This document shows positions 58,570 to 59,708 of a DNA stretch of 64,000 nt, in pieces (position 1 is the stretch's first letter; every line of letters starts with the position of its first letter). The position numbers and the translations under genes are program-made. The stretch covers positions 186,001 through 250,000 of the IMG/VR virus record IMGVR_UViG_3300021057_000274. One strand, given 5' to 3'. Below the pieces are notes generated by a model. The model searched no databases. It had not been told where the DNA came from and was given only the letters and a program-made list of their open reading frames with translations. This stretch comes from a virus.

Positions 58570-58878
58570 ATGCGACTTTCTGAGATCATCGCCGCTCGAG
58601 GCGAACCCCGCAAAGCTACGAAATTTCGGCTACAGTCGGCCGTTCCAGGCACGAAAAATTGGGAAGACTTGAGCAAGGAGCCAGTAACTCGTGAGGAGGC
58701 GACCGAGTTTCTAGAGCAAAACCCAGACGAACACTTGATGAAGTATAGGGCGCTCGGCGTCGACACCAATGAGACCCTCTACCGTGCAGATAAGCCCGAC
58801 CTGAAGAGCACGTTAGCACGCCACGCGCCTCCTGAGGTTCACAAGCGTAACGAGGACTTCTTCAAGAAATATCTATGA
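58570..58878 (+). CDS. Small protein with capsid-targeting-like start
   Basis: 102 aa from ATG 58570 (MRLSEIIAARGEPRK). The start resembles MKLTEL. The rest is charged and helical (EEATEFLEQNPDEHLMKYRALGVD, PEVHKRNEDFFKKYL). Its stop overlaps the phosphoribosyltransferase ATG (ATGA). A TAAATAG lies 5-12 bp upstream, too close to be its late promoter. If packaged, it would be another head-internal protein; this is inference. Confidence 0.6.
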   Translation: MRLSEIIAARGEPRKATKFRLQSAVPGTKNWEDLSKEPVTREEATEFLEQNPDEHLMKYRALGVDTNETLYRADKPDLKSTLARHAPPEVHKRNEDFFKKYL

Positions 58879-59708
58879 AACTCACCGAGCTCGTCGAGGA
58901 CATCTATCTGTCACCAGACTCGAAGCGAGTCGTGGTGGCGACCTCGAACAGCAAGGTTCAGCGAGCCTCTGGGGATGACTTCATCAGCACCGCCAAGCCG
59001 AAGCTTCCTCACCGCTCATCATCGACCACCCGCACGGGAGGCGTCGTTGTCTACAGCGCTTACCTCTACCACCCGAGCAAGATCGTCACCGAGATTCTCT
59101 CGTCGATCAAGGGTAAGGGGCCGTACGAGGTGATCGACAACTCTGTCAATCACTTTATCGACGAGACAGCAGCTTGGATGGGGCCCATCCTGCAGAGCCG
59201 CATCAACCCGACGCTCGTCGTTTTCCCGCGATCTTCATCCGGGTTGACTAAGCGATTCGCCGCGAGCCTCACCAAGCACTTCAAGAACGCTGAGATGATC
59301 GAGGACGCGTTCGTCAAGAACGTGATCAACATCACCGGTGACGAGCAGAAGGATCGAGCGATGGTCGGGTCACTGATCGACATCGACCATCCAAAGTTCG
59401 AGACGTTGAGCAAGGAGACCGTTGACGAGCTCGAGAAGCGGTTGCTGTCTCTCCTCAAGCGCGAGGGATCTGGAATCGTTCCGATCAAGAAGATCTATAA
59501 GCCGCTCGCGCAGTTCATCAAGGGCTTCATCAAGGCCGAGAACATCAAGGAGAACTTGAAAGGGGCTCGCGTCTTGGTCGTGGATGACATTCAGTCCTCT
59601 GGGACCACGATGCGTGAGATGGTTCAGATCGCTGAGGCCCGCGGCGCAGAAACTATCAACGGAGCGACGATCTTTCGCCAAACTTCGAAGGCATCGGAGA
59701 AAAAGTAG
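58875..59708 (+). CDS. Phosphoribosyltransferase-like protein with capsid-targeting-like N-terminus
   Basis: 277 aa from ATG 58875, overlapping the upstream stop. Starts MKLTELVEDIYLSPDSKR; LVE at residues 6-8 fits the prohead protease rule. The C-terminal GARVLVVDDIQSSGTTMREMVQIAEARGA (residues ~233-261) is the PRPP-binding loop (two acids then SSGTT) of type I phosphoribosyltransferases, and an earlier NPTLVVFPRSSSGLTKRFAASL strand-loop fits the fold. A long insert with acidic and Lys-rich helices separates them. The base it uses is unclear. A link to the NMN adenylyltransferase-like protein, which has the same start, would make an NAD-type pathway (speculative). Confidence 0.7.
   Translation: MKLTELVEDIYLSPDSKRVVVATSNSKVQRASGDDFISTAKPKLPHRSSSTTRTGGVVVYSAYLYHPSKIVTEILSSIKGKGPYEVIDNSVNHFIDETAAWMGPILQSRINPTLVVFPRSSSGLTKRFAASLTKHFKNAEMIEDAFVKNVINITGDEQKDRAMVGSLIDIDHPKFETLSKETVDELEKRLLSLLKREGSGIVPIKKIYKPLAQFIKGFIKAENIKENLKGARVLVVDDIQSSGTTMREMVQIAEARGAETINGATIFRQTSKASEKK

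Follow-up and report, generated by a model that had tools for sequence, protein, structure and literature searches.

The 64,000-nucleotide stretch analyzed here (the window) spans positions 186001 to 250000 of a virus record (G000) of 389,331 bases, which by its sequence is a T4-related jumbo phage. Its capsid protein is closest, among named phages, to that of Xanthomonas phage XacN1 (52% identity), and uncultured relatives reach identities of up to 84%. Genes were called with a home-made caller rather than a standard one. The window contains a portal gene (PF07230) and the following features:

2-769, minus strand: tagged gene 1, MKLTDLLVE then APIADLK, profile score 12.0
743-769, minus strand: predicted capsid-targeting peptide MKLTDLLVE, predicted cut after E9
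31493-32269, minus strand: tagged NadM-like nucleotidyltransferase, GRFQPFHLGH ... LSGTEVR, start MKLTELKDITAKPIDDEEPEIPE/A
32201-32269, minus strand: N-terminal extension of the same gene to the first LxE-type site (IPE, residue 23)
32517-33182, plus strand: gp55-like late sigma factor
50691-51314, plus strand: gp21-like prohead protease (Peptidase_S77, E 6e-29)
51706-52212, plus strand: candidate prohead-core protein, encoded between the gp21 and scaffold genes, MTMTATKVSFKDLLE/GEA, or VSFKDLLE from GTG 51727
53000-53917, plus strand: gp22-like scaffold/core protein, from weak family matches and its location ahead of gp23
about 53943-55295, plus strand: gp23-like major capsid protein (family matches)
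56928-58502, plus strand: tail sheath gene, directly 5' of the tagged pair 58570/58875
58560-58565, plus strand: TAAATA late-promoter-like box, 4 bases 5' of the ATG at 58570
58570-58878, plus strand: tagged 102-aa protein, fold unassigned, start MRLSEIIAARG
58875-59708, plus strand: tagged type I phosphoribosyltransferase-like protein, 277 aa, MKLTELVE then DIYLSP
58875-58898, plus strand: predicted capsid-targeting peptide MKLTELVE, predicted cut after E8

Tagged genes and head genes of the window

Five starts in the window had been singled out in the initial annotation as one shared N-terminal sequence, and a shared start is indeed present, in a set larger than first noticed. MKLTDLLVEA at 769 opens a minus-strand gene that runs left off the window and encodes 294 aa in the full genome, with no match for its product in Pfam and PHROG. 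MKLTELKD is the true start of the minus-strand gene 32269-31493, and MRLSEIIAA and MKLTELVED are those of the plus-strand genes 58570-58878 and 58875-59708, which overlap by 4 bases. For the fifth, VSFKDLLEGEA at 51706, the sequence is present but does not lie at the N-terminus of the ATG-started ORF, which reads MTMTATKVSFKDLLEGEA; the motif becomes N-terminal only when the GTG at 51727 serves as start codon, and an AAGGA box favours the ATG starts over this GTG. As an example of an N-terminal tag, 51706 is therefore doubtful. With respect to cutting, two of the five examples look weak, namely 58570, in which no LxE lies close to the start, and 32269, whose LxE-type site comes only at residue 23.

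The protease gp21, likewise noted before, is represented by the S77 family match, and the genome thus encodes this protease, a scaffold protein (weak match) and a gp23 with a predicted cut site. T4 gp21 cleaves by the rule L/I-x-E (PMC9026906). The predicted site in the window gp23 is LTE40/T, aligned with T4 FLTE/A (a slash marks the site), and alignment by eye placed T4 FLTE/A, window YLTE/T, XacN1 MLAE/T and RAS14 LLE/T together. By this comparison with T4, the predicted gp23 maturation site of the lineage is compatible with LxE.

Two further groups of genes were observed in the window. Very large RCC1-type repeat proteins are encoded among fibre and virion genes on the minus strand (5205-14222 and 16845-19769), and ORFs that by eye resemble GIY-YIG/NUMOD-type homing endonucleases (24041-24622, 25304-26071 and 38469-39125) lie between structural genes.

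Motif enrichment and the predicted cut site

The strict motif M[KR]L[TS][DE][LI] occurs at 4 of 48 gene starts in the window versus 0 of 277 internal Met, with 0.011 starts expected from column independence. At the DNA level the pattern was found five times in the window (four of them gene starts) versus 0.20 times in shuffles, and 15 times in the whole genome versus 2 for the reversed pattern; the match at window position 60316 and several genome matches were rejected because their gene starts were not credible.

Relatives were then picked by capsid gene, blind to the motif, giving eighty gene-called neighbourhoods from IMG/VR. In these, a looser motif, M[KR][LFIM]x[DEQKRN][LFIY], stands at 28 of 778 gene starts (5.0 expected from column independence) versus 4 of 4239 internal Met. 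A profile was trained on 50 looser-motif starts, all from other phages and including some from G002 and G003 neighbourhoods picked as motif-rich. The four window genes scored 12.0, 8.6, 6.4 and 4.0 on this profile, and every other window gene scored -4 or lower.

Pattern searches of the whole record, together with the reading of selected stretches, yielded 22 tagged genes in G000, a lower bound obtained with patterns that partly select for E at residue 8 or 9. The mature parts of these 22 proteins share no homology, in agreement with the earlier description of the proteins as unrelated. When mature parts from every locus read were grouped into families, 52 of these contained a tagged protein. 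In G000-G003 a looser pattern gave 66 matches versus 5 for the reversed pattern, and in CcrColossus, phiKZ and phage G, 13 versus 7. Matches are sparse in two named relatives, XacN1 and RAS14, and the wider group therefore does not carry the tag set throughout.

G002 has 27 matches to a looser pattern versus 0 reversed, and about 15 of the 27 cluster at 287000-303861, many of them belonging to one paralogous family. The corresponding locus (G002:C1:285500-305499) is an island in which about 15 tagged genes follow one another almost without interruption, with starts such as MKFKEFLKED, most encoding proteins of around 200 aa, many paralogous. Another region (G003:C1:160000-196500) carries a tagged zeta-toxin-like kinase (MVSFKEFISES) and a tagged amidoligase (MKFKDYLNEV), and its tagged cargo also includes proteins of about 290 aa, with unassigned fold, from a family of tandem genes. 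An ADP-ribosyltransferase identity was considered for a tagged family with an xRGM motif (G003, L054 and L065) and rejected, the model having a pTM of 0.60 and no significant PDB fold match.

The motif regex constrains residues 1-6 only. Among the 50 tagged starts from other phages, 20 have an [LIM]xE that ends at residue 9 and 10 have one that ends at residue 8, whereas either position has such an end in about 5% of all genes, and no enrichment was seen at residues 10-12; the residue-8 count is partly favoured by the regex through residue 6, and the residue-9 count is not. Glu at residue 9 alone is present in 22 of 50 versus 11% (p = 5e-9). The clade consensus can be written M-[KR]-[LFI]-x-[DEQ]-[LFIY]-[LIF]-x-E, with a predicted cut after E8 or E9.

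Predicted cargo proteins and their orthologues

The protein encoded at 58875 matches Pfam Pribosyltran (2.8e-10) and contains the PRPP-binding loop VVDDIQSSGTT, and its structural model matches ComF/HPRT with a Foldseek probability of 1.00 (E 1e-5); the whole-chain TM-scores are low, as would be expected when a match covers part of a 277-residue protein. By Pfam and modeled fold, it is a type I phosphoribosyltransferase. Orthologues lie 3' of the tail sheath gene in L017, L024, L027, L030 and L033, and a further one, in L018, has no recognised sheath gene in its vicinity. The window protein starts MKLTELVE/D, and its relatives start MKKNFKKFLDE/D, MLLHNLFE/D, MTTFKQYLSE/E, MITFKQFLSE/T, MTTFKEFLLDE/I and MKTNFKLFLEE/I, varying in sequence and length, every one with LxE or its like. 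Several of these orthologues score low on the profile because their register is shifted, and the likeness was therefore judged by eye. The slot between the sheath and phosphoribosyltransferase genes holds unrelated small genes in different phages, among them 58570 in the window and a GNAT acetyltransferase gene (start MKLIEITS) in L033.

Gene 32269 opens a leftward tail operon and points away from the gene for the late sigma factor. Its product matches Pfam CTP_transf_like from residue 35 (6.6e-7) and a PHROG cytidyltransferase, carries the GRFxPFHxGH and SGTxxR motifs of a cytidylyltransferase-like domain, and found no match in a PDB sequence search; the orthologue in L224 matches PHROG NMNAT at 2.6e-4. 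Family search combined with synteny located orthologues at the same syntenic place in G001-G004. The starts are MKLSQIFE/ASDSK in G001, MKLDEILRISE/D in G002 and MEFKKLLE/D in G003, in each of which the first strand of the enzyme comes shortly after the tag, and no clear tag was seen in the G004 orthologue. Searches of viral contigs with peptide patterns found no orthologues of 769, 32269 or 58570. Two further orthologue pairs, those of 78694 and 90218, likewise keep tag-like starts. Elsewhere in G000 (C1:14972-17697), adjacent cytidylyltransferase/nudix and nicotinamide phosphoribosyltransferase genes, both untagged, likely form a phage NAD-synthesis pair.

Proposed capsid targeting, its alternatives and known systems

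The shared start is probably a capsid-targeting sequence of the T4 type, with gp21 cutting the proteins and the cargo being injected with the DNA, as had been proposed at the outset. Five predictions that could have failed agree with the data: an LxE at a fixed place behind the motif, orthologous cargo that keeps a tag-like start despite sequence change, constraint on amino acids rather than codons, enrichment of the tag among genes with late-promoter-like boxes, and a gp23 site that fits LxE. We infer core binding, cutting, packaging and injection. Late in infection the tag peptide would bind the prohead core, gp21 would cut after [LI]xE and release the cargo, and the cargo would remain in the head alongside the DNA and enter the next host with it, where it may serve takeover or the evasion of defences. 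The virion of CBB, a distantly related phage, was characterized by mass spectrometry, and only three of its gene starts match, too small a number to weigh: the virion list includes CBB_299 (MRFSQITEDA) and lacks CBB_364 and CBB_42.

An unlikely alternative is that the tagged proteins are packaged and cut as parts of the prohead core and serve head assembly only, without injection. The orthologue of tagged G000 protein 339668 lies directly 3' of gp21 in the relative L026, and 51706 is located between gp21 and the scaffold gene, and part of the tagged set may therefore belong to the core, as gp67/gp68 do in T4. Against this reading as a general account, the cargo is largely enzyme-like (phosphoribosyltransferase, NadM-like, GNAT, zeta-like kinase, amidoligase and transglycosylase), varies between phages and is scattered, unlike core proteins, and the T4 internal proteins that carry such tags are injected (Silas et al. 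2025).

It is less likely still that the tag sends proteins to another destination (tail lumen, membrane or replication site) in a process unrelated to gp21. Several tagged genes do lie within tail operons, but the fixed LxE behind the motif points to the gp21 pathway, the tag is like those of T4 IPI (MKTFKEF) and IPIII (MKTYQEFIAE), and acidic residues at positions 5 and 8-9 are unlike a signal peptide.

A nucleotide signal at the start codons of leaderless late mRNAs, with no role for the peptide, was also considered. The genome holds 38 cases of TAAATA followed by ATG within 14 bases versus 6 for the reversed pattern, and 26 of the 38 have a gap of 4-6 bases (mostly 5); examples in the window lie at 58560-58572 and 43686-43700. 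This gap matches T4 late-promoter spacing, and the first transcribed base would therefore be about the A of the ATG, so that late mRNAs are apparently leaderless. Among ORFs chosen by the box alone, 9 of 22 are tagged (score >= -2) versus 3 of 46 other window genes (p = 0.001), and in relatives the box at 4-6 bases precedes 6 of 77 tagged and 16 of 998 other genes (p = 0.003). Several tagged genes have TAAATA 4-6 bases 5' of the ATG, as a nucleotide signal would have it. However, codons 2-9 of 15 tagged G000 genes are as varied as random synonymous choice, indicating that selection acts on the peptide; the tag is also found on operon-internal genes without a box, and the LxE at residues 8-9 would be left unexplained. 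Given the codon variety, this explanation was rejected as having next to no probability. A late-promoter-like box was also observed before a good tag start, MKLTQILENKTAAFTNL, that runs into a stop after 17 codons (L146:1147-1200; G000:39146), which may be what is left of a cargo gene since lost.

Chance resemblance among starts picked by eye is equally improbable: the strict motif was chosen post hoc on data already seen, but the four window genes are picked out again by a profile built on other phages, and the motif-blind neighbourhoods show an excess at gene starts.

Under the capsid-targeting interpretation, a broader proposal may be advanced tentatively, at somewhat less than even likelihood: the nine-residue tag would be a general loading code for tens of unrelated proteins per genome, including the phosphoribosyltransferase and the NadM-like protein, and the G002 island would be an effector store. 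If so, enzymes that handle nucleotides or NAD would enter the cell together with the DNA and be active ahead of any phage gene expression, and the island of about 15 tagged genes would encode injected effectors against the bacterial host. The injected proteins of jumbo phages are mostly uncharacterised because they are unlike anything annotated; were the tag what it resembles, the first nine residues would list candidate injected proteins from sequence, uncultured phages included, and island loci would be places to look for new counter-defence functions.

No description of the tag in this clade was found in the literature searched, and what appears new is the clade, the nine-residue form, the cargo number and the enzyme-like cargo. 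In T4, the capsid-targeting sequence is common to otherwise unrelated internal proteins, and ten N-terminal residues of IPIII are enough for packaging (PMC9026906; Rao and Black review). Many T-even ip genes were found by detecting this signal (Silas et al. 2025). The present tag resembles the targeting sequences of T4 IPI, IPII and IPIII in having Lys at position 2, an acidic residue or Gln in the middle, a pair of hydrophobic residues and [LI]xE; as in T4, it is carried by non-homologous proteins, gp21 is encoded in the same genome and the cargo differs between relatives. Whereas the IPIII sequence has 10 residues, the form here has 9 and usually ends at E8 or E9, with a consensus of MKL[TSN]ELL.E or MRFKEFL.E versus MKTYQEFIAE in T4; the IPE at residue 23 of 32269 resembles the longer propeptide of IPI.

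The phiKZ and SPN3US ejection proteins also belong to jumbo phages, in which many cleaved head proteins enter the host (PMC9026906), and phiKZ differs in its cleavage rule (S/A-x-E), its distant protease and the lack of an excess of the present motif. T4 Alt offers a precedent for a head-packaged enzyme, with propeptides cut by gp21 (PMC9026906), as is predicted here, although no ADP-ribosyltransferase was found among the tagged proteins. At least 20 cargo proteins, enzyme families included, are predicted to be packaged here, versus three in T4. If this prediction is correct, the T4 internal-protein idea would no longer be confined to a few anti-restriction proteins but would cover twenty or more proteins in each genome, some of them enzyme-like.
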